Source of the DNA: Oscillospiraceae bacterium
GTDB lineage: Bacteria > Bacillota > Clostridia > Oscillospirales > Oscillospiraceae
Assembly: GCA_017458335.1 (NCBI GenBank)
Contig: JAFTFT010000005.1
Span: 1-64,000, forward strand
DNA: 64,000 bases
Direction: 5' to 3'
Shown: piece by piece, positions 22,584 to 63,953 of the stretch
Layout: every line of letters starts with the position of its first letter
Position numbering within the stretch: position 1 is the first letter of the stretch
Program-made: the position numbers and the translations under genes
Notes under the pieces: model-generated
The model's database searches: none
Seen by the model: only the letters and a program-made list of their open reading frames with translations
Told to the model about the DNA's origin: nothing

Positions 22584-22838
22584 ATGGAGAATGATCAGGA
22601 CTATTTTGAAATTACGGCGACAACGGTGACGGTCGAAGTGAAGGACGCATATACCGGAAAAGTCTTCCGACGGGAGCTGCCGATCGACTACTACGAGAAC
22701 GCGAACTTCCTGAAACTGAGCGGTGAAAACATGGACGGCAGCGTCTCACAGCTGGTCTTCTACACCCCGCGCGGGGTTCAGCGCGTGAAGGACCTGACCG
22801 GAAAAGGCTTCGACCACGATCCCTGCCATAAAGACTAG
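22584..22838 (+). CDS. Small conserved-looking protein of unknown function
   Basis: 84 residues (ITATTVTVEVKDAYTGKVFR, RELPIDYYENANFLKLSGEN, then TPRGVQRVKDLTGKG). Predicted beta-rich, no signal, no membrane segment. ATG preceded by ACGGAGAAAATACC. It stands 96 bases ahead of the molybdenum hydroxylase gene with a GC-rich hairpin in between, so it may not share the transcript. Family not recognised. Confidence 0.6.
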   Translation: MENDQDYFEITATTVTVEVKDAYTGKVFRRELPIDYYENANFLKLSGENMDGSVSQLVFYTPRGVQRVKDLTGKGFDHDPCHKD

Positions 22839-22934: not shown

Positions 22935-25688
22935 ATGGTAAGAAAAACACTTGTCATCAACGGCGTGACCCGCAATCTGGTCCTGGCTCAGGACGAGACC
23001 CTCGCAAAGGTCCTGCGTGAGCATCTGCTGCTCACAGGCTGCAAGATCGGCTGCGGCGAAGGCCACTGCGGCGCCTGCAACGTCATCATGAACGGCAAGG
23101 TCACCAAGTCCTGCATCGTGAAGATGAGCAAGGTTCCCGACAATGCTGAGATCACCACCATCGAGGGTGTCGGCACGCTCAGCGACATGCACCCCCTGCA
23201 GGTTGCCTGGATGGCGCATGGCTGCGCCCAGTGCGGTTTCTGCACCCCGGGCTTCATTATCAGCGCCAAGGTCCTGCTGGAGCAGAATCCGAACCCGACC
23301 CGCGAAGAGGTCCGCGACTGGTTCAACAAGACCCGCAACCTCTGCCGCTGCACCGGCTACAAGCCGCTGGTTGACGCCGTCATGGATGCAGCCGCGGTTC
23401 TGCGCGGTGAGATGAGCAAGGAAGACCTGATCTTCAAGCCCACCGGCGACAGCATCAAGGGCACCAAGTACATCCGTCCCTCCGCGGCCCAGAAGGTCAC
23501 CGGTACCTGGGACTTCGGTGCAGATGACGCGCTGAAGATGCCCGGCTGCCTGCGTCTGGCCCTTACCCAGGCAAAGGTCTCCCACGCCAACATCAAGTCC
23601 ATCGACACGAGTGAAGCCGAGAAGATGCCCGGCGTCGTCAAGGTCATCACCTACAAGGACATCCTGGCCGCCGGCGGTTCCAACAAGATCAACGGCCTCG
23701 TCATGCTGCCGAAACACAACAAGACCGACGGCTTTGAGCGCCCGGTTCTGTGTTCTGACAAGATCTTCCAGTTCGGCGATGCCATCGCCATTGTCGCCGC
23801 CGACACCGAGGAACATGCCCGTGCCGCTGCCGATGCCGTCAAGGTCGACATCGAAGAGCTGCCCGCCTACATGAGTGCTCTCGACGCTATGGCTCCCGAC
23901 GCCATCGAGATCCACCCGGGTACCCCGAACGTCTTCTTCGAGACCAACTGCATCAAGGGACCGGACTTCGACTGGGACAGCGTGCCCGATGCCCAGCAGG
24001 TCGAGATCGAGAGCTACTGCTCACGCCAGCCGCATCTGCACCTCGAGCCGGACAACGGCTACGGCTACATCGATGAAGACGGCATGGTCACCGTCCACTC
24101 CAAGTCCATCGGCATCCATCTGCACATGCCGATGATCGCCGACGGCATCGGCGTTCCGATGGAAAAGCTCCGCATCGTCCAGAACCATGCCGGCGGTACC
24201 TTCGGCTACAAGTTCTCCCCGACGAACGAGGCCCTCATCGGCGCGGCCGCCAAGATCCTGGGCGTTCCCGTATCCCTGAACTTCAACCAGTTCCAGAACA
24301 TCACCTATACCGGCAAGCGTTCCCCGGCCTTCATGCACATCAAGCTGGCGGCCGACAAGAACGGCAAGCTGCTGGCTCTCTGGGGCGACAACTATGTCGA
24401 CCACGGCCCGTACTCCGAGTTCGGCGATCTGCTGACCATGCGTCTGAGCCAGTTCACCGGCGCCGGCTACGGCATCCCCTCCATCCGCAACAAGAGCCAG
24501 ACGGTCTTCACGAACCACGCCTGGGGCTCCGCCTTCCGTGCCTACGGTTCTCCGCAGAGCTTCATGGGCTCGGATATCGCCATCGACTGCCTCGCTGCCA
24601 AGATGGGCATCGATCCGTTCGAGATGCGCGCGATGAACTGCTACAAGGAGTCCGAAGGCACCACCATTCCGACCGGTTATCCGCCTGAGGTCTACTGCGA
24701 AGAGGCCCTGTTCGACAAGGCCCGCCCGCTGTATGAAGCCGGCAAGAAGAGAGTTGCCGAGAAGAACGCCGCCTCCGACGGACGCTATAAGTACGGCATC
24801 GGCGTCTCCCTGGGTGTCTACGGCTGCGGCCTGGACGGTGTTGACACCTCCTCCGCCTATGCCGAGCTGAATCCGGACGGAACGGTCACCATGTACGCCT
24901 CCTGGGAGGATCACGGACAGGGCGCCGACATGGGCGTTCTGGTCTCCGCCCATGAGACCCTGCGCCAGGCCGGCATCAAGCCCGAGCAGATCCGCCTGGT
25001 CATGAACGACACCAAGTACACTCCGAACTCCGGACCTGCCGGCGGTTCCCGCTCCCAGGTCATGTCCGGCAACGCCTGCCGTCTCGCGGCCGAGGCGCTG
25101 GTTGCCGAGATGAAGAAGGACGACGGTACCTTCCGCACCTATGACGAGATGGTCGCCGACGGCAAGAAGCTGAAGGTTGAGGGCAACTGGGTCACCACCT
25201 TCTGCGCCGATCATCCGATCGATCAGGATACCGCCCAGGGCGATCCGTTTGCCACCTACATGTACACCATCTTCCTGCCCGAAGTCTGCGTCGATACCCA
25301 GACCGGCAAGGTCAAGGTCGAGAAGTTCACCTGCGTGGCAGACGTCGGTACCATCATGAACAAGCTGCTGGTCGACGGCAACTTCTACGGCGGCCTGGCA
25401 CAGGGCATCGGCCTTGCGCTGACCGAGGACTTCGAGGATCTGTCGAAGCACACCAGCCTGCTCAAGTGCGGCATCCCGTACATCAAGGACATCCCCGATG
25501 ACATCGAGCTCGTCTACAACGAGACCTATCGTCCCTCCGGCCCCTACGGTGCTGCCGGCTGCGGCGAGGCCCCGCTGGATGCGCCGCACCCGGCCATCCT
25601 GAACGCGATCTACAATGCCACCGGAGCCCGCGTCACCCGCATTCCGGCCACGCCGGACAAGGTGCTTGCCGCGCTGAAGGAACTCTGA
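22935..25688 (+). CDS. Molybdenum hydroxylase (aldehyde oxidoreductase, Mop/xanthine-dehydrogenase family)
   Basis: 917 residues, close to the ~907 of the Desulfovibrio aldehyde oxidoreductase. Residues 1-80: plant-ferredoxin-like 2Fe-2S domain with Cys40, Cys45, Cys48 and Cys60. Residues ~95-140: helical second 2Fe-2S domain (CAQCGFCTPGF and CRCTGY). Then the two molybdopterin domains with the GGTFGYKF-type segment, the FRAYGSPQ loop and the terminal catalytic Glu in GAAGCGEAPLDAPHPA. All cofactors in one chain, no FAD domain, so electrons leave to an external partner. No signal peptide: cytoplasmic. AGGAGG lies 7 bases before ATG. The genes from 25878 onward are its presumed maturation or electron-transfer partners. 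Confidence 0.9.
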   Translation: MVRKTLVINGVTRNLVLAQDETLAKVLREHLLLTGCKIGCGEGHCGACNVIMNGKVTKSCIVKMSKVPDNAEITTIEGVGTLSDMHPLQVAWMAHGCAQCGFCTPGFIISAKVLLEQNPNPTREEVRDWFNKTRNLCRCTGYKPLVDAVMDAAAVLRGEMSKEDLIFKPTGDSIKGTKYIRPSAAQKVTGTWDFGADDALKMPGCLRLALTQAKVSHANIKSIDTSEAEKMPGVVKVITYKDILAAGGSNKINGLVMLPKHNKTDGFERPVLCSDKIFQFGDAIAIVAADTEEHARAAADAVKVDIEELPAYMSALDAMAPDAIEIHPGTPNVFFETNCIKGPDFDWDSVPDAQQVEIESYCSRQPHLHLEPDNGYGYIDEDGMVTVHSKSIGIHLHMPMIADGIGVPMEKLRIVQNHAGGTFGYKFSPTNEALIGAAAKILGVPVSLNFNQFQNITYTGKRSPAFMHIKLAADKNGKLLALWGDNYVDHGPYSEFGDLLTMRLSQFTGAGYGIPSIRNKSQTVFTNHAWGSAFRAYGSPQSFMGSDIAIDCLAAKMGIDPFEMRAMNCYKESEGTTIPTGYPPEVYCEEALFDKARPLYEAGKKRVAEKNAASDGRYKYGIGVSLGVYGCGLDGVDTSSAYAELNPDGTVTMYASWEDHGQGADMGVLVSAHETLRQAGIKPEQIRLVMNDTKYTPNSGPAGGSRSQVMSGNACRLAAEALVAEMKKDDGTFRTYDEMVADGKKLKVEGNWVTTFCADHPIDQDTAQGDPFATYMYTIFLPEVCVDTQTGKVKVEKFTCVADVGTIMNKLLVDGNFYGGLAQGIGLALTEDFEDLSKHTSLLKCGIPYIKDIPDDIELVYNETYRPSGPYGAAGCGEAPLDAPHPAILNAIYNATGARVTRIPATPDKVLAALKEL

Positions 25689-25700
25689 GAAAATGATTCT

Positions 25701-25727
25701 GTCTCCCGCCCCGGCGGGGCGGGAGAC
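25701..25727. terminator. GC-rich hairpin after the hydroxylase gene
   Basis: GTCTCCCGCCC pairs perfectly with GGGCGGGAGAC. No T tract follows, so it may act as an mRNA-end stabiliser or partial terminator. Confidence 0.5.
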
Positions 25728-25785
25728 AAACCGGGCACTTGAAACGGAGTGCCCGCCGTACGGAGGGCATTCTGATCCGCAGTCT

Positions 25786-25838
25786 TTGCAAAAATCAGCC
25801 GCGATGCTATAATAGAGAGGTCCTTCGGGACCTCTCTA
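25786..25838 (+). promoter_or_regulatory. Promoter with a hairpin at the transcript start
   Basis: TTGCAA (25786-25791), 16-base spacer, TATAAT (25808-25813). Immediately downstream, AGAGAGGTCC-TTCG-GGACCTCTCT (25814-25837) is a perfect 10-pair stem with a UUCG loop, which would sit at or straddle the 5' end of the mRNA of the maturation cassette. Confidence 0.6.
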
Positions 25839-25877
25839 TGTTCTAAGACCATTCTGTTACCGGGAGGGGAAAACGGT

Positions 25878-28172
25878 ATGCCTGAGATTCAGGAGCGTGG
25901 TTCAACCCATGTGTATAAAGTCAACCGCATCTCCAAAGAAGAAATGGAGAGTATGGTGGCGCGCTGCGTCTATGAGGAACCGCCGTTCTGCAATGCGGCT
26001 TGTCCGCTGAAGCTGGATACCCGCGCATTTCTGAAGGCGGCGGCAGGCGGGGACTTCAAGAAGGCGCTGCAGCTTTATGAGAAGGCGACACCGTTTCCCC
26101 TGATTCTGTCGATGGGCTGTGAAGCGCCCTGTGAGACAGCGTGCCGCCTGTGTGAACGGGGAGACGGAATTGCGGTGCGTGCGGTGGAAGCCGCTGCGGC
26201 GCGTTACGGACAGGCCTCCAGACTCGGAAGCGTCTTCCGGACAAAGAAAAAGAAAACCGTCGCCGTGCTGGGCTCAGGGCTGTTCCCGCTGTTTCTTGCC
26301 GGAGAACTGGAAAAGAAAGCCTATCCGACCACGGTGTTCTGTGAACAGGATGATCTGGAGGCCTTCCTGCACTGTGAGACGGAGTTCCTGGATGAAGAGG
26401 CCTTTGCCCTGGAACTCAAACGGCTGAAGGGCAAGGACATTCAGTTCGTCTTCGGCTGCGACCCGGATGAGGCCTTTTTCGCCAGGCAGCGGGAGGCCTT
26501 CGATGTGCTCTGCGCGTCCGAAACCGTGGCGAAGAAACTCTTTCCTTCCGAAGAGGCGGACCCGGCGCTCATGATTCTTGCGTCAGAAAAGCTCGTCACC
26601 GGCTGCGGCTCAGGCGTCATGGCGGCCGCTTTCGGGGCGAAGAAGGCCGCCCTCACGGTGGACCGCCTGGCCCAGAACCTGGATCCGCGCAATATGCGCG
26701 GAAGCGAAGGGGCCGTCGAAAGCAGACTCTATACGGACCTCTCGGAGGCTTCCGCACTCCGTCGCGTCCCGTCGGAGCAGGGCGGCTATACGCCGGAACA
26801 GGCGGCACAGGAGGCGGCAAGATGCATCCAGTGTCACTGTGAAGAGTGCATGAAGAGCTGCGCCTATCTGAAACATTACAAGAAATACCCCGGCCTGCTG
26901 TCCAAGGAAATCTACAACAACACACAGATCATCATGGGCGACCACCAGCTCAATAAGCCGATGAACGCCTGCACTCTCTGCGGCCAGTGCACGGCGGTCT
27001 GTCCCAACGGCTTTGATATGGCCCACGTCTGTGCGGTGGCGCGGCGGAATATGGTCTCTACGGACAAGATGCCCCTGGCGCCGCATGAGTTCGCGCTGAT
27101 GGACATGCTGTTTTCAAACGGAGACGCCTTCCTCAGCCGGCCGCAGCCCGGCTTTGAGACCTGCCGCTATGTCTTCTTCCCCGGGTGTCAGGCCTCGGCG
27201 ATCGCACCGGAGACGGTGAAGGCCGCGTATCTTGATCTCTGCAGCCGCCTCGATGGAGGCGTGGCGCTGATGCTGGGCTGCTGCGGGGCCATCTGCGACT
27301 GGGCGGGACGCTGCGAAATGCAGGAGAGCACGCGGGAGTTCCTTCTGACAGAGCTCTCCAGGCTGGGAGATCCGGTGATCATCGCAGGCTGCCCCAGCTG
27401 CCGGAAGGAACTGGCGGAATCCGTCGGCGGAGAAGTCGTCGGGATCTGGGACATTCTGGAGCGGATCGGTCTGCCGGAGGGCACAAAAAGAATCAACCGC
27501 CCGGCCGCGCTGCACGATTCCTGCGGAGCCCGCGGCGATGCCCATACCCAGCAGGCGATCCGGAACCTGGCTTCCAGGCTCGGCGTCCGGATTGTTGAGA
27601 CGAAATACTCCGGAGACCGCTCTCCCTGCTGCGGCTACGGCGGACTTACGGCTTATGCCAATCCGGAGGTTGCCGGGGAAATCACGCGGAAAGCGCTGGA
27701 GCGCACGGATGCACCGTATATCACCTACTGCATGGCCTGCAGGGACCGGTTTGCCCGGGAGGGGAGAGAATCCAGGCATATCCTGGAACTGATCTACGGA
27801 ACGGACGCCGGGGCGCCGCCGGATATCAGCGAGAAACGATACAACCGTCTGAATCTGAAGAGAGAGCTCCTCCGGGAGTTCTGGCAGGAGGAAACCGCCG
27901 AGATGAAGCTGGACTATGAACTGACATTTACGGATGAAGCGCGCAGCCTGATGGACAGCCGGATGATCCTGACGGACGATGTGATCGCGGTGCTGAACGA
28001 TTACCGGGAGCACGGCGAGGCCGTTCTGGATTCGGAGACCGGCCTGCTGATTGCCCGCCGACGCCTCGGAAACGCCACCTTCTGGGTCAAATTCACCGAG
28101 GATCAGGAGCAGGGCTATACCGTGCACGGGGCATACAGCCACCGGATGAATGTGGTCAGGAGGGAAGGCTGA
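25878..28172 (+). CDS. Fe-S/flavin pyridine-nucleotide oxidoreductase-like dicluster protein
   Basis: 764 residues. Residues ~30-90: the Fe-S domain of glutamate-synthase small subunits (CNAACPLKLDTRAFLKAA and CEAPCETACRLC). Residues ~125-250: a degenerate Rossmann unit (KTVAVLGSGLFPLFLAG), so FAD or NAD binding may be weakened. Residues ~310-390: CIQCHCEECMKSCAYLKHY and CTLCGQCTAVCPNGF, two ferredoxin-like clusters. Residues ~430-610: two CCG domains (MLGCCGAICDWAGR; SPCCGYGGLTAY) as in heterodisulfide reductase. C-terminal ~90 residues separate. Likely electron carrier between pyridine nucleotide or ferredoxin and the hydroxylase. I recall the same architecture as the dicluster-binding protein next to aldehyde oxidoreductase in Desulfovibrio. 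Stop and next start share a base (TGATG). Confidence 0.8.
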   Translation: MPEIQERGSTHVYKVNRISKEEMESMVARCVYEEPPFCNAACPLKLDTRAFLKAAAGGDFKKALQLYEKATPFPLILSMGCEAPCETACRLCERGDGIAVRAVEAAAARYGQASRLGSVFRTKKKKTVAVLGSGLFPLFLAGELEKKAYPTTVFCEQDDLEAFLHCETEFLDEEAFALELKRLKGKDIQFVFGCDPDEAFFARQREAFDVLCASETVAKKLFPSEEADPALMILASEKLVTGCGSGVMAAAFGAKKAALTVDRLAQNLDPRNMRGSEGAVESRLYTDLSEASALRRVPSEQGGYTPEQAAQEAARCIQCHCEECMKSCAYLKHYKKYPGLLSKEIYNNTQIIMGDHQLNKPMNACTLCGQCTAVCPNGFDMAHVCAVARRNMVSTDKMPLAPHEFALMDMLFSNGDAFLSRPQPGFETCRYVFFPGCQASAIAPETVKAAYLDLCSRLDGGVALMLGCCGAICDWAGRCEMQESTREFLLTELSRLGDPVIIAGCPSCRKELAESVGGEVVGIWDILERIGLPEGTKRINRPAALHDSCGARGDAHTQQAIRNLASRLGVRIVETKYSGDRSPCCGYGGLTAYANPEVAGEITRKALERTDAPYITYCMACRDRFAREGRESRHILELIYGTDAGAPPDISEKRYNRLNLKRELLREFWQEETAEMKLDYELTFTDEARSLMDSRMILTDDVIAVLNDYREHGEAVLDSETGLLIARRRLGNATFWVKFTEDQEQGYTVHGAYSHRMNVVRREG

Positions 28173-28393
28173 TGGCCATCGAGAGAAACTATTATACCAT
28201 TGACCCGGAGGGAAAACTGGAGTGCATGAAGTGCCATGTCCCTCTGATCAAGGGCAAGGCAAAGTTCATGTATCTGGACAACGGTTTTCCCGTGGAACTG
28301 CCGGTCTGCCCGGTCTGCGGTTTTGTCTATGTGCCGGAGGAGCTGGCGCTGGGGAAGGTCGCCTCCGTGGAACGGGCGCTGGAGGACAAATGA
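28172..28393 (+). CDS. Small two-CxxC redox protein (DVU_1557-like)
   Basis: 73 residues: CMKCHVPL near residue 18 and CPVCGFVYVPEELALGKV near 46 form a rubredoxin- or zinc-ribbon-like knuckle (CxxC...CxxC). It could hold iron or zinc, or carry persulfide. Coupled at both ends: TGATG with the upstream gene and ATGA with the downstream one. The assignment to the DVU_1557 redox family rests on recalled gene order. Confidence 0.75.
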   Translation: MAIERNYYTIDPEGKLECMKCHVPLIKGKAKFMYLDNGFPVELPVCPVCGFVYVPEELALGKVASVERALEDK

Positions 28394-28905
28394 ACGGACA
28401 CCCCGGCGGAGCGGAGCATACCCGGCACATGCTGGAGCTGGCTGATCTTCCGGCAGGGGCCGGGGTTCTGGACATGGGTGCCGGTGCGGGAGAAGCGGTG
28501 GCACTGCTGAACAGCCTCGGCTGCCGCGCGGAGGGAATCGACCTCAGACCGCGGACGGACCGGATCCGGGAAGGGGATTTCCTGTCCGCGCCCTATCCGG
28601 ATGAGAGCTTTGACGCGGTGCTGAGCCAGTGCGCGTTCTTCGTTTCGGGAGATCCGGAGGGGGCTCTGAGAGAAGCCCGGCGGCTCCTGAAGCCGGGCGG
28701 AAAGCTGATGCTCTCGGACGTGGAGTTTGCACCGCTGAGGCCGATGACGGAAGAAGCCGGATTCCGGATCCTTTTTGATGAGGATCTGAGCGCGGCCTGG
28801 AAGGAGTATTACATCGAAGCGCTCTGGCGCGGAGAGACCTGTGACTGTGAGCTGCCGAAGGGAAAATGCGGATATCGTCTGCTGATCGCGGAGAAGGAGA
28901 AGTAA
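28390..28905 (+). CDS. Class I SAM-dependent methyltransferase (DVU_1556-like)
   Basis: 171 residues from ATG 28390. Motif I VLDMGAGAGEAVALL near residue 25, acidic motif II EGIDLRP, motif post-I SFDAVLSQCAFFV, and the ArsM/UbiE-like RRLLKPGGKLMLSDV near 105. The C-terminal part keeps a short CDCELPKGKCGY with three cysteines, atypical for small-molecule methyltransferases and consistent with a role in sulfur or metal chemistry. Member of the hydroxylase-associated cassette. Confidence 0.8.
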   Translation: MNGHPGGAEHTRHMLELADLPAGAGVLDMGAGAGEAVALLNSLGCRAEGIDLRPRTDRIREGDFLSAPYPDESFDAVLSQCAFFVSGDPEGALREARRLLKPGGKLMLSDVEFAPLRPMTEEAGFRILFDEDLSAAWKEYYIEALWRGETCDCELPKGKCGYRLLIAEKEK

Positions 28906-28907
28906 AC

Positions 28908-29333
28908 ATGGATCTGTTTGACCAAATCATCGAGCTCGGCCGATACGGATATTCCTGCGGCCAGATTCTGGCGCTGCTGCTGGAAAAGGTGACCGGGGAG
29001 GAAAACCCCGCTCTGGTCAAGGCCCTGGGCGGCCTGGACGGCGGCGTCGGCTATTCGAAGGGCTGCTGCGGCTGTATGACGGGGGGCGCCTGCCTGATCT
29101 CTTCCTTCACGGGAAAGGGCGGCGATTTCGAGTACGAGCACCCGGAGCACAAGTCGGCACTGGGTGAATTTACCCGGTGGTTTCAGGACGAGATGACTGC
29201 GGATTACGGCGGCATCAACTGCGAAGACATCATCGGCACGGATCCCGCCAAGCGGGTGGAGTACTGCCCGCAGATCATGGCGGCGAGCTTTGAAAAATGT
29301 ATGGAGATTCTGGAAGAGAAAGGACTGCTCTGA
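28908..29333 (+). CDS. C-GCAxxG-C-C family protein (DVU_1555-like)
   Basis: 141 residues from ATG 28908, two bases after the methyltransferase stop. The family's Cys pattern is present: an N-terminal YSCGQILALL, the central KGCCGCMTGGACLISSF, INCEDIIG and EYCPQIMAASFEKC. These proteins are thought to bind redox-active Cys or metal centres; no reaction is established. It lies between the methyltransferase and the ligase in the same order as in the Desulfovibrio group I recall. Confidence 0.8.
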   Translation: MDLFDQIIELGRYGYSCGQILALLLEKVTGEENPALVKALGGLDGGVGYSKGCCGCMTGGACLISSFTGKGGDFEYEHPEHKSALGEFTRWFQDEMTADYGGINCEDIIGTDPAKRVEYCPQIMAASFEKCMEILEEKGLL

Positions 29334-29352
29334 CCTGGGGCGTATACGCGGC

Positions 29353-30531
29353 ATGAGACGGAGTCGGATCGACAGCTTCATCATGGAGCAGGAGGGCCTG
29401 CAGACCCTGAACAGAAAAGAGATCGAAGCGGTTCAGCTGGAAAAGCTGAACCGCGTTCTGGCGATGGAGAGAAAGCGGGCCGGCTTTTACCGGAATCTGC
29501 CGGAACGGCTGAACAGCCTCGCGGAGCTCAAAGATCTCCCCTTTACTACGGAAGAGGATCTGGCACAGCATGCACCCGGCCTGCTGCTCCGGTCTCAGGC
29601 GGAGATTCAGCGGGTGCTCTCCGACGCCACCTCGGGCACCACCGGTGCGGCCAAGCGTGTTTTCTACACCGAAGGGGACTGCCGGAACACTGTCCGGCTG
29701 TTTGTGGCAGGCCTCGGTGAACTGATCGGACCGGGCAGCGTGACGATGATCTGCTTTCCGTTTTCCGGACCTCACGGGCTGGGGGAGTTGATCAGCGAAG
29801 CCGTCGAAGGCCTCGGCGCGAAGCCCCTGAAACTGGGCGCCGGGCTGAGCTATGGGGAATACCGCGGGGTGATGGCGGAGGAAAAGCCGGACACCTTTGT
29901 CGGTATGCCGGTTCAGCTGCTGTCGATGCTGCGCGTCTGCGGGAACGGAAGCCTGGAGCGGGCGCTGGTCAGCGGGGATGCGTGTCCGCGGACCGTGACG
30001 GAGGCCTGTGAAAAGATCCTTGGAACAAAATTGTTTCCACACTACGGCTCCCGCGAAATGGCGCTGGGCGGTGCGATCTGCTGCCCTGCCCATGAGGGGA
30101 TGCACCTGCGGGAAAACCATGTCATCGCGGAAATCATTGACCCGGCAGGAAACCCGCTTATGCCGGGAGAGACCGGGGAGCTGGTGATCACCACCATCGG
30201 GATGGAAGCCATGCCCCTGATCCGCTACCGAACCGGGGATTTTACCCGGATTCTGCCGGACAGATGCCCCTGCGGCAGCGAGGTGCTGCGCCTGGACACG
30301 GTACACCGCGGCGGGAGAGCCTCCGAGATGGAGAAACTGGACGGGAGGATGTTTTCCCTTCCCTGGGTAGCGGACTACCGGGCGGAGAGACGAAACGGAA
30401 GGCTGCGGATGGAGGTCCTGACCTGCGGAGAAGGAACGCCGCCTCCCCTGGACGCGGAGTGGAAACTGCGGCAGGTCACGGCGGAGGACCGGGCACTGTA
30501 CCACGGGAAGAGAACCGTTGAAGAAACCTGA
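29353..30531 (+). CDS. AMP-dependent CoA-ligase-like enzyme (DVU_1553-like)
   Basis: 392 residues, short for an ANL enzyme and closest to phenylacetate-CoA-ligase types. ATG 29353 chosen (ATG 29383 also possible). Phosphate-binding loop SDATSGTTGAAKRVFY near residue 93, LFPHYGSREMALGG near 220, and RYRTGDFTRI near 290 with the conserved Asp and Arg. The C-terminal lid domain is small. It adenylates a carboxylate or a sulfur carrier; within a cofactor-maturation cassette the true substrate is open. Confidence 0.8.
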   Translation: MRRSRIDSFIMEQEGLQTLNRKEIEAVQLEKLNRVLAMERKRAGFYRNLPERLNSLAELKDLPFTTEEDLAQHAPGLLLRSQAEIQRVLSDATSGTTGAAKRVFYTEGDCRNTVRLFVAGLGELIGPGSVTMICFPFSGPHGLGELISEAVEGLGAKPLKLGAGLSYGEYRGVMAEEKPDTFVGMPVQLLSMLRVCGNGSLERALVSGDACPRTVTEACEKILGTKLFPHYGSREMALGGAICCPAHEGMHLRENHVIAEIIDPAGNPLMPGETGELVITTIGMEAMPLIRYRTGDFTRILPDRCPCGSEVLRLDTVHRGGRASEMEKLDGRMFSLPWVADYRAERRNGRLRMEVLTCGEGTPPPLDAEWKLRQVTAEDRALYHGKRTVEET

Positions 30532-30584
30532 GGTCTGTGGCGCGGAGCCTGCCCGGAGAGAAACAGGTTTTTTACATTTTTCTC

Positions 30585-30613
30585 TTGTCGGAAGACTGAT
30601 ATGGAGTTAAAAT
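30585..30613 (+). promoter_or_regulatory. Promoter of the GTPase-radical SAM pair
   Basis: TTGTCG (30585-30590), 17-base spacer, TAAAAT (30608-30613), 96 bases before the GTPase ATG. It makes the last two genes of the cassette separately expressible. Confidence 0.5.
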
Positions 30614-30708
30614 AAACTAATAAAGCTAATAAAGATCGATAAGATCGATCGAGATTGCAGGCGCACTGAGGGCCGGCAAAAACAGAACAGAAAGAGAAGT
30701 GACCGGTA

Positions 30709-31770
30709 ATGAAGAAATTTGCGGTATTCAGCGGCTTTCTCGGCTCGGGAAAGACCACGACAATGATGGCGCTGACCGACTATTACACGGCGCATCACGG
30801 AAGGGCGGCCATGATCTCCAACGACCTCGGCCATGGGGTTACACTGGCGGACCACTGTTATGCCCGACTCTGCGGCTGCAATGCCTCGGAGATGACCGAC
30901 GAGTGCATCTGCTACCAGAACGAAAATCTGGCGGACCGGCTGAGGTCGTATTACGACGATGGCTGTGAGCTGGTGATCTCGGACATACCCGGCTTCGGCG
31001 TCGGTGCGCTGGAACATGTCTATCACGGCCTGACAGAGAAATATCCAGGGGAGTTTGACCTGGCGCCCTTTACGGTTCTGGTGGAGCCCAGAACGGTGGC
31101 CATTCTGCGTGACGGGACAGGTGGAGATCTGGAATACCTGTATGACACCCAACTGGTGGAGGCGGATCTTATCGTACTGAACAAATGCGATCTGATGGAT
31201 GAAAATCGGCGGGAAGAGGATGTCCGGTGGCTACGCGGGCGTTACCCTGAGGCAGAAGTCCTCTGTATCAGCGCACTCAGGGCCGAGGGCCTGGAAGAAC
31301 TGTCGCAGGCGCTGGCGCGGGGAAAGGCCTCCATGCGCCGGCCGGAGATCGGCTATGGCGGAGAGGCCTTCCGGGCGGCCATGGGCAGGATCAGCGAATT
31401 CTATCTTCAGTTTCGCGCGGTCGTCTGCTGCAATGATTTTGACGGTAACGCCTGGCTGAGCGAAATGGCGGGGGCACTGAAAACGGAGATCGAAAAAGCC
31501 GGATACGAGGTTCCGCATTTCAAACTTCTGGCCTGGGAGCCGGAAGGAGACTTCGGGAAAGTGGACCTGCTGGGAACAGAAAGAGAGATCGAGGTGAACC
31601 ATCGCTTTGCCCGCCCCTGTACGGACCTTGCCGCGGTGCTGAATGCCAGTGCGGTCTGCCCTGCCGGGATTCTGGAACAGGTGGCCATGGATACCGTCAG
31701 AACGGTTTCCGACCGGTATCAGCTGGAGCTGACGGTGTTCAAGAAAGAATGCTTCGGTATGGGGGGCTGA
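30709..31770 (+). CDS. CobW/G3E-type GTPase metallochaperone-like protein
   Basis: 353 residues. P-loop GFLGSGKTT at residues 9-17, Walker B-like VISDIPGFG, base-specificity motif VLNKCDLMD. The metal-binding site typical of the family (GCxCC) is altered to ECICYQNENL, with one Cys pair reduced to C-x-C. The C-terminal domain differs from CobW. Such GTPases deliver metals or cofactors to client proteins. Next to a molybdoenzyme maturation cassette, insertion of metal or modified cofactor is plausible but unproven. The radical SAM gene begins one base after the stop. Confidence 0.8.
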   Translation: MKKFAVFSGFLGSGKTTTMMALTDYYTAHHGRAAMISNDLGHGVTLADHCYARLCGCNASEMTDECICYQNENLADRLRSYYDDGCELVISDIPGFGVGALEHVYHGLTEKYPGEFDLAPFTVLVEPRTVAILRDGTGGDLEYLYDTQLVEADLIVLNKCDLMDENRREEDVRWLRGRYPEAEVLCISALRAEGLEELSQALARGKASMRRPEIGYGGEAFRAAMGRISEFYLQFRAVVCCNDFDGNAWLSEMAGALKTEIEKAGYEVPHFKLLAWEPEGDFGKVDLLGTEREIEVNHRFARPCTDLAAVLNASAVCPAGILEQVAMDTVRTVSDRYQLELTVFKKECFGMGG

Positions 31771-31771
31771 G

Positions 31772-33070
31772 ATGGGGAAGGAGATTCGAAGGAGCAGATC
31801 GGTCTGCCCGGTCTGCGGGAAGAATCTCCCGGCGGTCCTCTCACAGGAGCCGGACGGAGTCATCCGGTTAAAGAAGAGCTGCCCGGAGCACGGCGGCTTT
31901 TCGGTGCCCGTCTGGCGCGGCAGGCTGGATTTCGATCAGTGGCTTCTGGGGACGGAGCCGATGCCGGAGGACTGCGGCCTGCATTGCCCGGCGCACTGCG
32001 GCATCTGCCCGGAGCATGAGAGCGGGAGCTGCTGCGTGCTGCTGGAGGTGACGGAGCGCTGTAACCTGCACTGCCGTTACTGCTTCGCAGACGGCGGGAA
32101 CAATACGGAAGACCCCTGTGCGGAGCAGATGAAAGAGGCAATTCGGGAGATCGTCCGGCAGTGCGGCGAGCCTCTTCTGCAGTTTTCCGGGGGAGAACCC
32201 ACCCTGCGGGACGACCTTCCGGAGCTGGTGCGCTATGCGAAGGAGGCCGGGTGCAGCTATACCCAGGTGAACACCAACGGCATCCGCCTTGCCGAAGATC
32301 CCGGCTATGCCGAGGCGCTCTGCGAGGCCGGACTGGATATTGTGTTCCTGCAGTTTGACGGAACCCGGAATGACATCTATGAGCGGCTTCGAGGCAGCGC
32401 TTTGCTGGAAACCAAGCGGAAGGCGATTGAACGCTGCGCCGGACTCGGAATCGGGGTCACCCTGGTCCCCACAGTGGTCCGGGGCGTCAACGACGATAAT
32501 CTCGGCGATCTGGTCCGCCTGGCGACGGCGCTTGCTCCGGGCGTCCGCGGCATTCACTTCCAGCCGGTCTCCTACTTCGGCCGGTATCCGGAAAACCCGT
32601 CTGCCGATGAGCGCTACACCCTGGACGAACTGATGGCGGACATCAGCGCGCAGGCCGGAATCCCGGTCGGAAGCTTCATGCCCTCGCGCTGCGATCATCC
32701 GCTCTGCGGCTTTCACGCGAGTTTCCTGATCGAAGAAAATGGCGGTCTCCGGCCGCTGAGTTCCATCACCCACTCCGCCCATACCCGGGGCAGCGCAAGA
32801 GAGAACCGCGACTACGTGGCAAGGCACTGGCGAAGAGCGCCGGAGGAGGCTCCGCCGCAGACCACTGTGCCGCAGACCGCATTCGCGGAGGAGATGGATT
32901 TTGATACCTTCCTGTACCGCCTCCGTCACAGCAGCCTGACTCTGTCGGCCATGGCCTTTCAGGACGCCATGAACCTGAACATCGAACGTCTGCACCGCTG
33001 CAGCCTGCACGTTTATGACAGAGGAACCATCAAACCTTTCTGTGCAAAGTATCTCAGTCTGACGGAGTGA
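31772..33070 (+). CDS. trsS: Radical SAM protein, TrsS-like
   Basis: 432 residues. N-terminal CPVCGKNLPA knuckle at residues 12-21 and SCPEHGGFSVPVW, then CGLHCPAHCGICPEH, then the radical SAM cluster CNLHCRYCFADGG near residue 94 and LQFSGGEPTLRDDL. Such N-terminal cysteine-rich extensions are found in the TrsS/tetraether-synthase-like radical SAM group. C-terminal CDHPLCGFHASFL supplies more Cys. I recognise it as the radical SAM member of the molybdenum-hydroxylase-linked set, in which some homologues are selenoproteins; all key positions here are Cys codons. Reaction unknown. Confidence 0.75.
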   Translation: MGKEIRRSRSVCPVCGKNLPAVLSQEPDGVIRLKKSCPEHGGFSVPVWRGRLDFDQWLLGTEPMPEDCGLHCPAHCGICPEHESGSCCVLLEVTERCNLHCRYCFADGGNNTEDPCAEQMKEAIREIVRQCGEPLLQFSGGEPTLRDDLPELVRYAKEAGCSYTQVNTNGIRLAEDPGYAEALCEAGLDIVFLQFDGTRNDIYERLRGSALLETKRKAIERCAGLGIGVTLVPTVVRGVNDDNLGDLVRLATALAPGVRGIHFQPVSYFGRYPENPSADERYTLDELMADISAQAGIPVGSFMPSRCDHPLCGFHASFLIEENGGLRPLSSITHSAHTRGSARENRDYVARHWRRAPEEAPPQTTVPQTAFAEEMDFDTFLYRLRHSSLTLSAMAFQDAMNLNIERLHRCSLHVYDRGTIKPFCAKYLSLTE

Positions 33071-36638: not shown

Positions 36639-38846
36639 ATGAAGATTTCACGCAGAGACTTTCTGAAGGGATCCGCGGCGGGCGCTCTCGGCCTTGCGGC
36701 GACGTCGATCCTGGGCCCGGCGACGGCGCTGGCCGACGACGCAAAGACCGCGGAAGCACCGGTCAACGTCTATAAGGTCATGACCGAACTGAATCCGCAG
36801 GACTATGACTTCCGCGATCCGGATTCCGATCTCTCCGCGGTGTTCAGCCCCTGGAAGTTCGGCGGGCTGACGCTGAACCACCGCATGGTCAAGTCCGCGG
36901 CCGGTTCCGACACCCAGAAGGGCAGCGAAGAGGAGGCCGTCGAGTACTATGCCGCCTTTGCAAAGGGCGGGGTGGAGATGGTCTGGGTTGAGGACTTCCT
37001 GGCCTTCGGAGACAACTTCCCCAGCGGCCGTGCCACAAAGATCGAGGACTCCCACGTGAAAGCCGTTGTCGACGGGGTGCATGCCGCCGGCGGGTATATC
37101 GGCTACCAGCTCAGCTGCATGGGGCGGTCCTTCAGCGGCTTTGACGCCGCGACCGCGCCGCAGTATGCCTCGGCCTTTGCCGAGCACCTCACCAGAGAAG
37201 AGGTAAAGCTGGTTCAGGAGGACTTCATCCAGGGCGCGAAGAAAATGAAGGACCTCGGGTTTGACGCGGTCGAGATCAATGCCGCCGGCAACAACATCGG
37301 ACAGGCCTTCTTCTCCAGGCAGAGAAACCACCGCGACGACGAATACGGCCCCCAGAGCTTTGAAAACAGAGCACGCTTTGTCGGCGAGATCATCACCGGC
37401 ATCAAGGAACTCTGCGGCAAGGACTTCCCGGTTCAGGTCCTGATCAACGGCATCGAAGAGAACGACATCAACATCGGCGAAGCAGATCTCTCGACCACCG
37501 TGGAAGAGAACTGCAAGATCTGCAAGTCCCTCGAGGACTTCGGCGCGGATTCGCTCCATGTGAGACTGGGTGTCTTCCGCATGCACGTCTGTCAGTTTGC
37601 TTCCGACCTGTACTTTACCGGTAACGGCATCATCGGCACCGCCGCGGACGGAACGCGTTTTGACTTCTCCCGCCACTTCGAAGGAAAGCTTCTCGCCAAC
37701 CACGACGCCTACGGCATGATGCTGAATGTCGCGAAGGAAATCAAGGAAGCCGTCACCATCCCCGTCGGTACGGTCACCTGCATGAACCCGGCCTATGCGC
37801 CAAAGTTCTTCAACGATGCCATTGCCAACGGCATGTGCGACTTCTTTATCATGAACCGCCCGCTTACGGTGGATCCGGAGTATGTCAACAAACTGCGCGA
37901 GGGCAGAATCGACGAGATCGCACCCTGCACACGCTGCATGCACTGTCATTTCGACTACACCGAGGACGGTGTGTATTTTGAGCACTGCCGCGTAAACGCC
38001 GCGACCCAGAGAGCCTGGCACGACGAGATGCCGGAGGGCGCCACCCCGCGACCCGGCGACGGAGAGAAGAAGGTCATGGTGATCGGCGGCGGCCCGGCCG
38101 GCATGGAGGCTGCAAGGATTGCCGCGCAGCGCGGATATGACGTCACACTGTATGAGAAGCAGACGGTCCTTGGCGGACTGCTCACCTTTGCCAGCGTCAT
38201 CAAGGGACCGCATGAGAACCTGAACGATCTGAAGAAATACCTGATCTGTCAGCTGGAGCTGAAGGGCGTCACGGTCGTGACCGGCACTGAGGTCACCCGC
38301 GAGCTGATCGAGCAGGAGGCGCCGGACTATGTGGTTCTGGCCGTCGGCGGCCGCCGTCCGGAACTGGAGTTCGAGTCCAACGGCGCGACAAGCGTGATCT
38401 CGCTGGATGACATCGCGTTCAAGCCGATCGGCGATCATGTGACCATCCTCGGCGGAAACGCCCAGGCAGTGGACGCCGCCCAGTATCTGATCGCCCAGGG
38501 CAAGCATGTCACGATGGTCTCTCCGGAAGGAAAGGAGCATCTGGATAAGGGGCAGTCCTCCTGGGTCAAGCAGTTTACGATTCCTATGCTGTACGCCAAC
38601 GGCACCCGTCTCTGGCCGAATGCGTCGCTCAAGGAAGTGCGTGACGGAACGGTCGTGATTGACGGAGAGACCGGATGCGACATCGTCGTGAAGTGCGACA
38701 CGGTCATCGACGCACGCGACATGCTTCCGAATGCGGAGCTGATCGAAGGCCTGAGCATTCCTGCGGTTGCGGTCGGCGACTGCAATTCCCCGTTCAACAT
38801 CGCGGAAGCCATTGCGGCCGGAAACCTCGCGGCCAGACGGATCTGA
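36639..38846 (+). CDS. Tat-exported Old-Yellow-Enzyme-type flavo-iron-sulfur reductase
   Basis: 735 residues. Tat signal ISRRDFLKGSAAGALGLAAT at the N-terminus. Residues ~65-420: FMN-binding TIM barrel (WKFGGLTLNHRMVKSAA; the GFDAVEINAAGNNIGQAF segment). Cluster site CTRCMHCHFDYTEDG with a later C in FEHCRVNA (spacing C-x2-C-x2-C-x13-C, slightly unlike the usual C-x2-C-x3-C-x11-C). Residues ~460 onward: FAD/NAD(P) domains (KVMVIGGGPAGMEAARIA). This is the layout of 2,4-dienoyl-CoA reductase and bile-acid or enoate reductases, which are normally cytoplasmic. Export with a Tat signal suggests a respiratory use of an extracellular enone- or enoate-type acceptor. Confidence 0.85.
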   Translation: MKISRRDFLKGSAAGALGLAATSILGPATALADDAKTAEAPVNVYKVMTELNPQDYDFRDPDSDLSAVFSPWKFGGLTLNHRMVKSAAGSDTQKGSEEEAVEYYAAFAKGGVEMVWVEDFLAFGDNFPSGRATKIEDSHVKAVVDGVHAAGGYIGYQLSCMGRSFSGFDAATAPQYASAFAEHLTREEVKLVQEDFIQGAKKMKDLGFDAVEINAAGNNIGQAFFSRQRNHRDDEYGPQSFENRARFVGEIITGIKELCGKDFPVQVLINGIEENDINIGEADLSTTVEENCKICKSLEDFGADSLHVRLGVFRMHVCQFASDLYFTGNGIIGTAADGTRFDFSRHFEGKLLANHDAYGMMLNVAKEIKEAVTIPVGTVTCMNPAYAPKFFNDAIANGMCDFFIMNRPLTVDPEYVNKLREGRIDEIAPCTRCMHCHFDYTEDGVYFEHCRVNAATQRAWHDEMPEGATPRPGDGEKKVMVIGGGPAGMEAARIAAQRGYDVTLYEKQTVLGGLLTFASVIKGPHENLNDLKKYLICQLELKGVTVVTGTEVTRELIEQEAPDYVVLAVGGRRPELEFESNGATSVISLDDIAFKPIGDHVTILGGNAQAVDAAQYLIAQGKHVTMVSPEGKEHLDKGQSSWVKQFTIPMLYANGTRLWPNASLKEVRDGTVVIDGETGCDIVVKCDTVIDARDMLPNAELIEGLSIPAVAVGDCNSPFNIAEAIAAGNLAARRI

Positions 38847-61132: not shown

Positions 61133-62158
61133 ATGAAGCTGATGAAAACCGAGGACGCTGTCGGACAGGTCCTGTGCCATGATATTACCCAGATTATCCG
61201 CGGTGTGAGCAAGGACGCGGTGTTCCGCAAGGGCCATGTGATCCGGCCGGAGGATGTGCCGGTGCTGCTGAGCGTGGGCAAGGACACGGTGTATATCTGG
61301 GAAAACGACGAAACCATGCTCCACGAAAACGACGCGGCCTATATCCTGCGGGACATCTGCATGAATGCGAACATGACGGCTACGGAACCGAAGGAAGGCA
61401 AGATCGAGCTGATCGCCGACGTGGACGGCCTGTTCCTTGTGGATCTTGAGCGCCTGCGGGCGGTGAACTCCCTGGGGGACATGATGATCGCGACCCGGGC
61501 GTCCGGCTTCATGGTGAAAAAGGGCGACAAGCTCTGCGGTACCCGTGTGATCCCGCTTGTGATCAAGAAGGAGCGTATGGAAGCGGCAAAGCAGGCGGCG
61601 GGAGAAGCTCCCATCATGCAGCTGGTCCCGGTGAAGCCGAAGAAGTACGGCCTGGTGACCACCGGGAACGAAGTCTTCTACGGACGTATCGAGGATACCT
61701 TCACGCCGGTCATCCAGGCGAAAATGGCGGAGTTCGGCTGTGAGATGCAGGAGCACGTGGTGCTCAACGACGACCATGAGAAGATCACGGCCGCGATTCA
61801 GGAGATGCTGAACAAGGGCTGTGAAATGGTGGTCTGTACCGGCGGCATGAGCGTCGACCCGGACGACAAGACCCCGCTTGCCATCAAGAATACGGGCGCG
61901 AACATCGTCTCCTACGGCGCGCCGGTGCTGCCGGGAGCCATGTTCCTGCTGGCCTATACGGACGACGGCCGGCCGGTCTGCGGCCTGCCCGGCTGCGTCA
62001 TGTATGCGAAACGGACGATTTTCGATCTGGTGCTGCCGTATCTGGTCACCGATACGCCGGTGACAAAAGAGCATCTGGCCGGCCTGGGCCACGGCGGCCT
62101 CTGCCTCAACTGCAAGGTCTGTCACTTCCCGAACTGCGGATTCGGAAAGGGAGTTTAA
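61133..62158 (+). CDS. MoeA-like molybdopterin-binding protein with C-terminal cysteine tail
   Basis: 341 residues, GGGAGGATTACCCC before ATG. Residues ~1-160: MoeA-type N-terminal parts in reduced form (VGQVLCHDITQIIRG, then FRKGHVIRPEDVPVLL). Residues ~165-310: MoCF/MogA domain with YGLVTTGNEVFYGRI, VCTGGMSVDPDDKTPLAI and GAPVLPGAMFLLAY, VCGLPGCVMYAKRTIFDLVLP. The tail LAGLGHGGLCLNCKVC and HFPNCGFGKG adds four Cys and two His, able to bind a metal or cluster. Likely molybdate or tungstate insertion or cofactor sorting. Stands just before modABC. Confidence 0.8.
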   Translation: MKLMKTEDAVGQVLCHDITQIIRGVSKDAVFRKGHVIRPEDVPVLLSVGKDTVYIWENDETMLHENDAAYILRDICMNANMTATEPKEGKIELIADVDGLFLVDLERLRAVNSLGDMMIATRASGFMVKKGDKLCGTRVIPLVIKKERMEAAKQAAGEAPIMQLVPVKPKKYGLVTTGNEVFYGRIEDTFTPVIQAKMAEFGCEMQEHVVLNDDHEKITAAIQEMLNKGCEMVVCTGGMSVDPDDKTPLAIKNTGANIVSYGAPVLPGAMFLLAYTDDGRPVCGLPGCVMYAKRTIFDLVLPYLVTDTPVTKEHLAGLGHGGLCLNCKVCHFPNCGFGKGV

Positions 62159-62286: not shown

Positions 62287-62334
62287 TTTGTATAAATTTA
62301 TAGTCCCTGAAATATGGGAAGAAGGAGAAACCAC

Positions 62335-63219
62335 ATGAAAAAAGCACTTTCCCTGCTGCTTGCGCTGACCATGGTCTTCGCGCTGGCCGTACCGAGTGCC
62401 TTCGCCGCCGACGCGGAGAAGACGGAACTGATCGTCTTTGCCGCGGCCTCGATGACGGAGACGCTGAACCGGATCAAGGAACTCTACGAGGCGGAGAACC
62501 CCGATGTCACCCTGGTCTATAACTTCGACTCTTCCGGTACCCTGAAGACTCAGATCCAGGAAGGGGCAGACTGCGACGTATTTATCTCTGCGGCTCCGAA
62601 GCAGATGAACCAGCTGGACGCCTCCAAGGACAAGGATGCCAATCCCGACGGCCTTGACTTCGTCCTGCAGGGCAGCCGTATTAACCTCCTCGAGAACAAG
62701 GTCGTTCTGGCCGTTCCGGAAGGAAATCCCAAGGGAATTGAGAGCTTCGACCAGCTGGCAGAGCTGCTGGCGGCCGGCGACGTGTTCCTCGCCATGGGCA
62801 ACAGCGATGTCCCGGTCGGACAGTATACCCAGAAGATCCTTGCGTTCTATGGCCTGGATGAAGAGGCCCTGGCCAAGGCCGGTTCCATCACCTACGGCAC
62901 CAACGTGAAAGAGGTTACGACCCAGGTCACGGAAGCGAGCGTTGACTGCGGCATTGTCTACGCCACGGATGCGTTTTCCGCCGGTCTCGACAGCGTGGAC
63001 GCTGCCACCGCAGAGATGTGCGGCCAGGTCATCTATCCCGCCGCGGTCCTGAACGTCAGCCAGAATCCCGAAGCCGCTCAGGCGTTCCTGGACTATCTGA
63101 CCGGACCGGAGGCCACCGAGGTCTTTGAAGCGGTTGGCTTCAGCGCGATGACCAAGGAAGCCGAAGCGAAGACCGAGCCTGCTCCCGAGGCTTCCCCGGA
63201 AGTGACACCCGCGGCATAA
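62335..63219 (+). CDS. modA: Molybdate/tungstate-binding protein ModA
   Basis: 294 residues from ATG 62335 (GAAGGAGAAACCAC). Sec signal peptide ending PSAFAA, without a lipobox Cys, which is unusual for a Gram-positive binding protein. Mature part: LIVFAAASMTETLNRIKELY, then YNFDSSGTLKTQIQEGADCD (oxyanion-binding Ser), DVFISAAPKQM, and VDCGIVYATDAFSAG. Family PBP II ModA. The last 25 residues (EAKTEPAPEASPEVTPAA) form a flexible acidic/Pro tail. Confidence 0.9.
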   Translation: MKKALSLLLALTMVFALAVPSAFAADAEKTELIVFAAASMTETLNRIKELYEAENPDVTLVYNFDSSGTLKTQIQEGADCDVFISAAPKQMNQLDASKDKDANPDGLDFVLQGSRINLLENKVVLAVPEGNPKGIESFDQLAELLAAGDVFLAMGNSDVPVGQYTQKILAFYGLDEEALAKAGSITYGTNVKEVTTQVTEASVDCGIVYATDAFSAGLDSVDAATAEMCGQVIYPAAVLNVSQNPEAAQAFLDYLTGPEATEVFEAVGFSAMTKEAEAKTEPAPEASPEVTPAA

Positions 63220-63232: not shown

Positions 63233-63268
63233 CGGGCATCGGGAGGCTTCCTGCCGCCCGATGCCCCG
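63233..63268 (+). other. Intercistronic hairpin between modA and modB
   Basis: GGGCATCGGG pairs perfectly with CCCGATGCCC, no T tract. Probably protects the modA mRNA end or tunes modB levels, as with the oppA-oppB hairpin. Confidence 0.6.
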
Positions 63269-63278
63269 GAGTAGTTTC

Positions 63279-63953
63279 ATGAATTTTGACTGGTATCCGT
63301 TATGGAATTCCCTGCGCATCGCGGCGATCAGCTGTGTGCTGGTTTTCTTCCTCGGTATTTTCTTCGCCTATTACGCGGCGCGGCTGCCGCGGGCGGTCAA
63401 GGGCGTGCTGGATGTGTTTCTCACGCTGCCGATGGTCCTGCCGCCGACGGTCTGCGGCTATTTCCTGCTGCTCGTTTTCGGCGTGAAGCGCCCCCTCGGC
63501 ATCTTCCTGCTGAAGTTCGGCATCAAGTTCGTCATGACCTGGTACGGCGGCGTGCTGGCGGCCTCGGTCGTCGCCTTCCCACTGATGTACCGGACGGCAA
63601 GAGGCGCCTTTGAGAGCTTCGATCAGACGCTGGCCTATTCCGGGCAGACTCTTGGTCTCAGCAACACCTATATCTTCTGGCGGATCCGCATGCCCGCCTG
63701 CCGGCAGGGAATCCTGGCCGGAACCGTACTGGCCTTTGCCCGCGCACTGGGCGAGTACGGCGCCACCAGCATGCTGATCGGCTATACCCCGGGACGCACC
63801 GCAACCATTTCGACCACGGTCTACCAGCTCTGGCGGACCAACGACGAGAAGGGCGCGATGTTCTGGGTGCTTATAAACCTCGCCATCAGCACGGTGGTCC
63901 TGCTCACGGTGAACATGCTGGAAGCAAGGCAGAAGAAGGCGGTGAAGGCATGA
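63279..63953 (+). CDS. modB: Molybdate ABC transporter permease ModB
   Basis: 224 residues from ATG 63279 (CCCGGAGTAGTTTC upstream; the ATG at 63261 lies inside the hairpin). Five membrane helices, LTLPMVLPPTVCGYFLLLVF near residue 50, the EAA loop LAYSGQTLGLSNTYIFWRIR near 125 and GEYGATSMLIGYTPGRT near 165, all hallmarks of ModB. Confidence 0.92.
   Translation: MNFDWYPLWNSLRIAAISCVLVFFLGIFFAYYAARLPRAVKGVLDVFLTLPMVLPPTVCGYFLLLVFGVKRPLGIFLLKFGIKFVMTWYGGVLAASVVAFPLMYRTARGAFESFDQTLAYSGQTLGLSNTYIFWRIRMPACRQGILAGTVLAFARALGEYGATSMLIGYTPGRTATISTTVYQLWRTNDEKGAMFWVLINLAISTVVLLTVNMLEARQKKAVKA

Follow-up and report, generated by a model that had tools for sequence, protein, structure and literature searches.

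Within the window, i.e. the 64,000 nucleotides analyzed here (positions 1 to 64,000 of contig JAFTFT010000005.1, Oscillospiraceae bacterium assembly GCA_017458335.1), eight plus-strand genes were confirmed between positions 22935 and 33070. They encode a molybdenum (Mo) hydroxylase of the Mop type, the iron-sulfur protein DICL, the small protein RDX, the methyltransferase MT, the cysteine-motif protein CGA, an adenylate-forming ligase (AMP), a CobW-like GTPase and the radical S-adenosylmethionine (SAM) protein TrsS (Table 1). The set exists as described, and across the sampled genomes it is closely associated with Mop. A first-pass annotation of the sequence had described a tight run of seven genes behind the hydroxylase that carries surplus cysteines and resembles the Desulfovibrio DVU_1551-1559 neighbourhood. 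All of these features were recovered: the genes are in place on one strand with mostly small gaps, the cysteines are real and conserved in alignments, and Mop, DICL, RDX, CGA and AMP passed the cut-offs of five NCBIfam models with neighbouring accessions, with TrsS scoring at threshold. Mop and DICL are separated by 189 bases, and the intergenic distances from DICL through TrsS amount to -1, -4, 2, 19, 177 and 1 bases. This spacing makes translational coupling of part of the cassette likely. Start sites of RDX, MT, CGA and AMP were corrected by reading the DNA; the AMP reading frame is open already from TTG 29290, and 29353 represents its most likely start.

The families of the locus have mostly been modelled already by NCBI curators (NF045645, NF045646 and NF045663-NF045669 for DVU_1551-1559). 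Compared to the Desulfovibrio neighbourhood, MT as well as the maturation factors XdhC and NTPt scored below their cut-offs, an extra CobW-like GTPase precedes TrsS, and the DVU_1551 model is split across two proteins, namely NTPt with its ModE-type helix-turn-helix (HTH) domain and HisPhos-HD. Moreover, XdhC and NTPt belong to a Mo-uptake cluster about 32 kb downstream, a difference that refers to the Desulfovibrio gene order as we presume it to be.

Table 1. Genes of the Mop locus, of the second Mo cluster and of its continuation on the same contig beyond the window.
Feature	Position	Strand	Assignment
Mop, molybdopterin-dependent aldehyde oxidoreductase, two [2Fe-2S] domains and Mo domains	22935..25688	+	NF045668, 1517.6 bits (cut-off 1100)
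DICL, GltD-like N-terminal Fe-S domain, 4Fe-4S dicluster, CCG (HdrB-like) motifs	25878..28172	+	NF045663, 797 bits (cut-off 530); PF14691, PF13534, PF02754
RDX, 73 amino acids (aa), two CxxC pairs (DUF7479, DVU_1557 family)	28172..28393	+	NF045645, 90 bits (cut-off 60); PF24292
MT, SAM methyltransferase, DVU_1556-like	28390..28905	+	PF08241; NF045667, 122.4 bits (below cut-off 155)
CGA, C-GCAxxG-C-C protein, DVU_1555 family	28908..29333	+	NF045669, 138 bits (cut-off 103); PF09719
AMP, phenylacetate-CoA-ligase-like adenylate-forming enzyme (CoA, coenzyme A), DVU_1553 family	29353..30531	+	NF045666, 324 bits (cut-off 300); PaaK structures
CobW-like G3E GTPase	30709..31770	+	PF02492 (cobW)
TrsS, radical SAM protein, tetraether-lipid-synthase type	31772..33070	+	NF045646, 489.3 bits (489.6 in genome search; cut-off 490, at threshold; relatives up to 707); profile match to Tes 7tol
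84-aa protein, no family (f15), upstream of Mop; C81, H82 conserved	22584..22838	+
MoeA-like molybdopterin-binding protein, opens second Mo cluster	61133..62158	+	PF00994; TIGR00177, 63.5 bits (cut-off 85.35)
ModA, molybdate-binding protein	62314..63219	+	TIGR01256, 127 bits
ModB, molybdate permease	63261..63953	+	local family model
ModC	within about 63950-68110, past window end		local family model
XdhC	about 65072-66100, past window end	-	NF045664, 263 bits (cut-off 350)
HisPhos-HD	66177-67184, past window end	-	NCBIfam and Pfam
NTPt, MocA-like nucleoside triphosphate transferase	67187-68107, past window end	-	NF045665, 201 bits (cut-off 315)

Mop matched the solved structures 1sij/1vlb and 1dgj over its full length (1126 and 1170 bits), and its score against the selenium-dependent xanthine dehydrogenase model TIGR03311 (406.8 bits) was below the cut-off of 830. 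The [2Fe-2S] cysteines C40, C45, C48, C60, C100, C103, C137 and C139 as well as E878, presumably the active-site glutamate, are conserved in 59 Mop sequences. The protein is a full-length homologue of the aldehyde oxidoreductase (AOR) of Desulfovibrio gigas and D. desulfuricans, from a host of a different phylum. The D. gigas enzyme provided the first structure of the xanthine oxidase family (PMC10223205, PMC3877041). It was resolved at 1.28 Å with ordinary molybdopterin cytosine dinucleotide (MCD; PMC10223205), and in the competent enzyme the equatorial ligand is oxo rather than sulfido (PMC10223205, PMC3877041). Its physiological acceptor is merely putative, namely flavodoxin (PMC10223205). 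Furthermore, DVU_1559 of D. vulgaris was listed as Aor under ethanol metabolism in a proteome table (PMC10920352); work based on random barcode transposon-site sequencing (RB-TnSeq; PMC10102598) deals with another, tungsten-containing enzyme.

Conserved cysteines were also observed in the smaller proteins of the set. Invariant residues comprise C18, C21, C46 and C49 of RDX (50 sequences), C81 of MT (32 sequences), C17, C54, C105 and C120 of CGA (39 sequences), C244, C305 and C307 of AMP (38 sequences) and C66 and C68 of the CobW-like GTPase (54 sequences); the alignment of DICL likewise contains invariant cysteines. In AMP, the adenylation motif residues and the C-terminal K386 are conserved, and the ligase is thus probably active. 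The CobW-like GTPase was matched by no specific NCBIfam model; its gene lies at most 200 bp upstream of TrsS on the same strand in 58 of 91 TrsS loci. The roles assigned here to the motifs of AMP, MT, CGA, RDX, DICL and the GTPase are those which we take them to have.

As judged from its alignment, TrsS is a bacterial relative of the tetraether lipid synthase Tes (GDGT-MAS, mj0619) that has kept four metal sites and carries two invariant cysteines of its own. Tes (7tol) is by far the nearest solved structure, with E-values of 5.7e-69 in the sequence and 4.7e-108 in the profile search. The rubredoxin, N-terminal auxiliary, radical SAM and C-terminal cluster sites, including the labile methionine, are all retained: at least 97% of the 91 TrsS sequences share the Tes-aligned ligands (C12, C15, C37, H40; C72, C76, C79, H82; C97, C101, C104; C312, C410, C424, M394), those of the C-terminus being assigned by alignment and not by structure. 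In contrast to Tes, the segment linking core and C-terminus is short (about 68 versus about 112 residues), V414 (99% of the 91) occupies the place of Tyr459, and C87 and C307, invariant in all 91, align with non-cysteine residues, the C307 region aligning weakly. Against the tetraether lipid synthase model NF045702, TrsS reached 289 bits, below the cut-off of 450. Tyr459 is strictly conserved in the archaeal enzymes, but variants are still active, and Tes bonds a substrate carbon to a cluster sulfur (PMC9433317). Considering this carbon-sulfur chemistry and the retained metal ligands, TrsS likely activates an unreactive carbon. The joining of two lipids appears less likely, since the middle region is shortened. 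Bacterial Tes homologues have been noted in organisms for which the production of such lipids is not known (Lloyd et al. 2022, PMC9433317).

The name TrsS reportedly goes back to a paper of Haft and Tolstoy from 2025. A literature search on the DVU_15xx loci and TrsS, which did not cover that paper, retrieved just one table entry, in which TrsS is listed as a selenoprotein family citing Haft and Tolstoy 2025 (PMC13188914), in addition to mentions of DVU_1559 and DVU_1558. The TrsS gene of the window contains no in-frame stop, and selenocysteine in TrsS of genomes G137 and G593 was dismissed as the flagged TGA represents the terminal stop codon. Pterin methylation by TrsS, an idea derived from the Pfam label 'HMPTM zinc ribbon', was also discarded: mj0619 is the tetraether synthase, and its role as a pterin methylase was not corroborated (PMC9433317). 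A search of Escherichia coli DNA for TrsS gave no match. Beside TrsS proper, a group of TrsS-like radical SAM proteins scoring about 313-367 bits was observed (G258, G193 and G003 at loci L135-L137, as well as G439, G454, G508, G606 and G615), and no Mop over the cut-off was found in the corresponding genomes. At L135, a gene product encoded nearby was labelled, by reading of its sequence, as similar to a lipoprotein diacylglyceryl transferase, and the group may represent a lipid-modifying branch. Moreover, at L123:2646-6600 and L126:6885-10800, TrsS stands in tandem with a TrsS-like paralogue and an AMP ligase, with no Mop in the locus; a DUF5714-like protein is encoded close by in L123.

In order to evaluate how closely the set follows the hydroxylase, Mop, DICL, AMP, CGA and TrsS were profiled in 293 genomes of the class, comprising that of the window (83.7% complete) and others requested at 90% completeness or more. 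The best candidates per genome were scored (2 Mop, 3 DICL, 5 TrsS and 7 AMP). DICL exceeded its cut-off in 15 genomes and AMP in the identical 15; Mop did so in 14 of them, with a contig-cut match in G088, and CGA in 14, with a contig-cut match in G210. TrsS scored at least 489 bits in 14, i.e. in all but G088. Among the best candidates of the other 278 genomes, none was over the cut-off for any of the five families. The 15 positive genomes span 11 genera and 9 families, and Fisher tests of family co-occurrence gave p-values of 1e-22 or lower, for genomes that are not independent of each other. Mop was rechecked in 46 genomes of this sample, 11 positive and 35 negative ones, by scoring all candidates, except for G206 (15 of 21); all 11 positives stayed positive and none of the 35 negatives exceeded the cut-off. 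Below-cut-off matches to the Mop model, mostly of the xanthine dehydrogenase type, were present in 48 of the 278 negatives, which lack the set. Genomes with solely xanthine-dehydrogenase-type hydroxylases have no TrsS set, in which the set differs from the XdhC/MocA maturation of xanthine oxidase family enzymes. This profile, which the first-pass annotation had itself named as a check, supports its claim of co-occurrence: the families go with this hydroxylase clade and not with the xanthine dehydrogenase type.

The association also extends beyond the class. In a sample of 378 genomes of the phylum, in which Mop was searched in TrsS-positive genomes only, 26 genomes in addition to G000 possess TrsS of 451 bits or more, and Mop was found in all 26 (25 over the cut-off, one contig-cut). 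Among phylum-sample genomes possessing solely the 313-367-bit TrsS-like proteins, Mop was found in one of six. Metagenome-assembled genomes (MAGs) of relatives gave a similar result: when contig-cut fragments are included, 74 of 79 MAGs with TrsS encode a Mop-type hydroxylase, be it within the locus or at another site. It is located in the TrsS locus in 29, some of these being contig-cut fragments. The remaining 50 were searched genome-wide, yielding Mop over the cut-off in 27 and below-cut-off matches in 18 more, which are mostly contig-cut fragments (one of 48 residues) accepted by our own criterion of at least 1.08 bits per aligned residue.

Gene neighbourhoods were evaluated for 47 Mop copies with at least 6 kb of downstream sequence. 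They belong to 57 full-length copies, 20 of them from the window and loci fetched by means of TrsS and 37 from other regions, so that the TrsS figure is biased. Within 8 kb of Mop, DICL was present in 45, RDX in 43, CGA in 37, AMP in 36, MT in 31, TrsS in 25, NTPt in 25, XdhC in 24 and CobW in nine. At L118, L130, L144, L149 and L150, Mop, DICL and RDX are separate from the rest of the set. In genomes with additional Mop copies, DICL is mostly present next to them, and the other genes can be shared. Genome G079 encodes three Mops (at 3179862, 450432 and 1747937) and three DICL, and single copies of TrsS, AMP and CGA; the third DICL starts 225 bases past the third Mop, and RDX resides beside two of the Mops, the region of the third lying outside that count. 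In G172, DICL and RDX accompany each of the two Mop copies, and TrsS, AMP and CGA occur just once. The three Mops of G324 (1114, 1093 and 1073 bits, one over the cut-off) are accompanied by one TrsS. Their usual retention next to additional Mop copies makes DICL and RDX look more like partners of the hydroxylase in electron transfer than like maturation factors.

Based on gene content, gene order, co-occurrence, copy numbers and the conservation of metal-binding residues as observed here, we propose two layers, namely dedicated redox partners of Mop and a maturation set that several Mops share, a reading to which we give an even chance. In the first layer, electrons would pass from the [2Fe-2S] clusters of Mop via RDX to DICL, a direction which we infer from the domains involved, and DICL would hand them on or use its own HdrB-like sites. 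The second layer would comprise TrsS with the CobW-like GTPase, AMP, MT and CGA as a maturation or activation set. Under this proposal, the earlier interpretation as a maturation cassette, which is partly supported, would apply to the second layer and not to DICL and RDX. DICL with its CCG motifs beside nearly every Mop would also suit a rather improbable alternative, in which TrsS, AMP and MT produce a small diffusible redox carrier or modified thiol for DICL as the acceptor of Mop. No known carrier pathway corresponds to the set as far as we are aware, which counts against this alternative, as does the clustering of CobW-TrsS with Mo genes in 20 of 51 Mop-less loci described below. The merely putative acceptor of D. 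gigas AOR, flavodoxin (PMC10223205), leaves room for such a carrier.

Regarding the shared layer, no Mop was found in the locus for 51 of the 91 TrsS. Twenty of these 51 loci hold at least one Mo gene, HisPhos-HD being counted (XdhC in 15, MoeA-like in 13, modB in 12), and a MoeA-like gene is near TrsS in 34 of all 91 loci. In 24 of the 91, an AMP gene is found no more than 3 kb from TrsS, four of these loci being Mop-less. In the genome of the window, the corresponding genes form a second Mo cluster, through which the window end cuts: MoeA-like, ModA and ModB are followed by ModC, XdhC, HisPhos-HD and NTPt at about 63950-68110. Accordingly, the reported absence of an XdhC-type sulfuration factor and a MobA-like transferase applies to the window alone and is a window-edge effect, since the cluster runs on past its end; both genes are on the contig, albeit not in the cassette. 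Thus, the two factors of the XdhC/MocA maturation of xanthine oxidase family enzymes are encoded in this genome. XdhC has been titled 'XdhC family aldehyde oxidoreductase maturation factor' in the NCBI model, and in contrast to XdhC/MocA-served enzymes, D. gigas AOR functions without a sulfido ligand (PMC3877041). NTPt (L143:7188-8108, minus strand) bears the ModE-type HTH domain at its C-terminus, which suggests that a cofactor enzyme has been joined to a molybdate regulator.

Under the two-layer proposal, the second layer would work alongside these known factors, i.e. XdhC, the MocA-like NTPt and the MoeA-like protein. The AMP ligase would activate a small substrate, and TrsS would act on it by abstracting hydrogen from an unactivated carbon and holding the radical on sulfur of its C-terminal cluster. 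The product would supply something needed by the active site of Mop. A metabolic pathway represents a serious, less likely rival: TrsS and MT would build or modify a carbon skeleton, Mop would oxidize an aldehyde to the acid, AMP would convert this acid into a CoA or AMP ester, and solely XdhC, NTPt and the MoeA-like protein would mature Mop. The phenylacetate-CoA ligase type of AMP with its adenylation residues including K386, the assignment of MT to the class I SAM methyltransferases, the joint conservation of the components and the placement of DVU_1559 under ethanol metabolism in D. vulgaris (PMC10920352) are in line with such a pathway. However, extra Mop copies of one genome can go with a single TrsS, AMP and CGA, and some of these copies reside in different gene surroundings. 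Moreover, some of the loci without Mop have CobW-TrsS embedded in a group of modABC, XdhC, NTPt and MoeA-like genes. The same clade of TrsS also accompanies both deep Mop subclades, TrsS of genomes with the second subclade nesting within TrsS of those with the first.

Several observations weigh against the two-layer proposal. Co-occurrence cannot separate maturation from a shared metabolic pathway, and metabolites are the usual substrates of AMP ligases and SAM methyltransferases. Five of the 79 TrsS MAGs showed no Mop-type hydroxylase (four without any match, one with solely xanthine-dehydrogenase-type matches), no Mo gene was seen in 31 of the 51 Mop-less TrsS loci, and CobW is absent from the cassette in the deep clades. 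In the 99% complete genome G088 (L138), Mop (contig-cut), DICL, RDX, MT, CGA and AMP are present and no TrsS was found. Sharing is also not universal, as the TrsS count at least equals the Mop count in G096, G117, G137 and G255. Neither DICL nor RDX is located within 8 kb of Mop at L132 (G159) and L146 (G324). Finally, distances in the Mop and TrsS trees correlate poorly (r = 0.21, 50 pairs), and tight enzyme-maturase co-evolution is not supported on this basis. Such weak congruence makes specific pairing less likely and agrees with a common service. Together with the many TrsS lacking Mop in their locus, it would also fit a successful mobile cluster that is co-inherited with no functional tie between TrsS and Mop. 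This explanation is very improbable in our estimation, since genomes with unlinked TrsS still possess Mop (45 of 50 MAGs, 26 of 26 in the phylum sample) and presence or absence within genera affects the families jointly: in g75, g89 and g127, genomes with all families stand alongside others lacking all of them (G073; G094; G180 and G275, respectively).

Regarding the chemistry of the shared set, a new cofactor or sulfur-transfer system, as put forward in the first-pass annotation, is a conjecture, given the ordinary MCD and oxo ligand of D. gigas AOR (PMC10223205, PMC3877041). If D. gigas has the cassette, its plain MCD (PMC10223205) implies that no lasting pterin modification is to be expected, a further point against the maturation proposal. 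A new cofactor is possible. Specifically, in a rather improbable reading, a component made by TrsS could enable Mop-type hydroxylases, unlike the rest of the xanthine oxidase family, to work without a Mo-sulfido group: a C-S or C-C bond would be formed by tetraether-synthase-type chemistry on the AMP-activated precursor, and the product, being transient or easily lost during purification, would help to assemble the active Mo-dithiolene or keep it active. If true, this would represent, as far as known, the first cofactor or activation role for the bacterial tetraether synthase branch. In terms of candidates, DICL and RDX are direct ones for the electron acceptor of Mop, and TrsS, AMP, MT and CGA for its activation set. 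Furthermore, the bacterial tetraether synthase branch gains a defined biochemical partner.

Among the neighbouring genes, the 84-aa protein encoded upstream of Mop had no match in a family search of NCBIfam and Pfam. Its gene is located within 8 kb of Mop in 14 of the 47 Mop copies, and C81 and H82 near the end of the protein are conserved in 29 sequences. In genomes G029, G212 and G257, selenocysteine in Mo hydroxylases was considered and rejected, as the genes consist of two adjacent reading frames with a stop followed by a new start. At L139, L140 and L141, Mo hydroxylases of the same family and order are encoded as two adjacent reading frames (small Fe-S and large subunit) that had been flagged as containing an in-frame TGA. 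Furthermore, the window encodes a flavocytochrome c / fumarate-reductase-like oxidoreductase (16263-18548) as well as a bilirubin reductase / BaiCD-type old-yellow-enzyme (36639-38846), both below curated cut-offs and with Tat-like signals recognized by reading. These two oxidoreductases hint at a respiratory use of organic acceptors.

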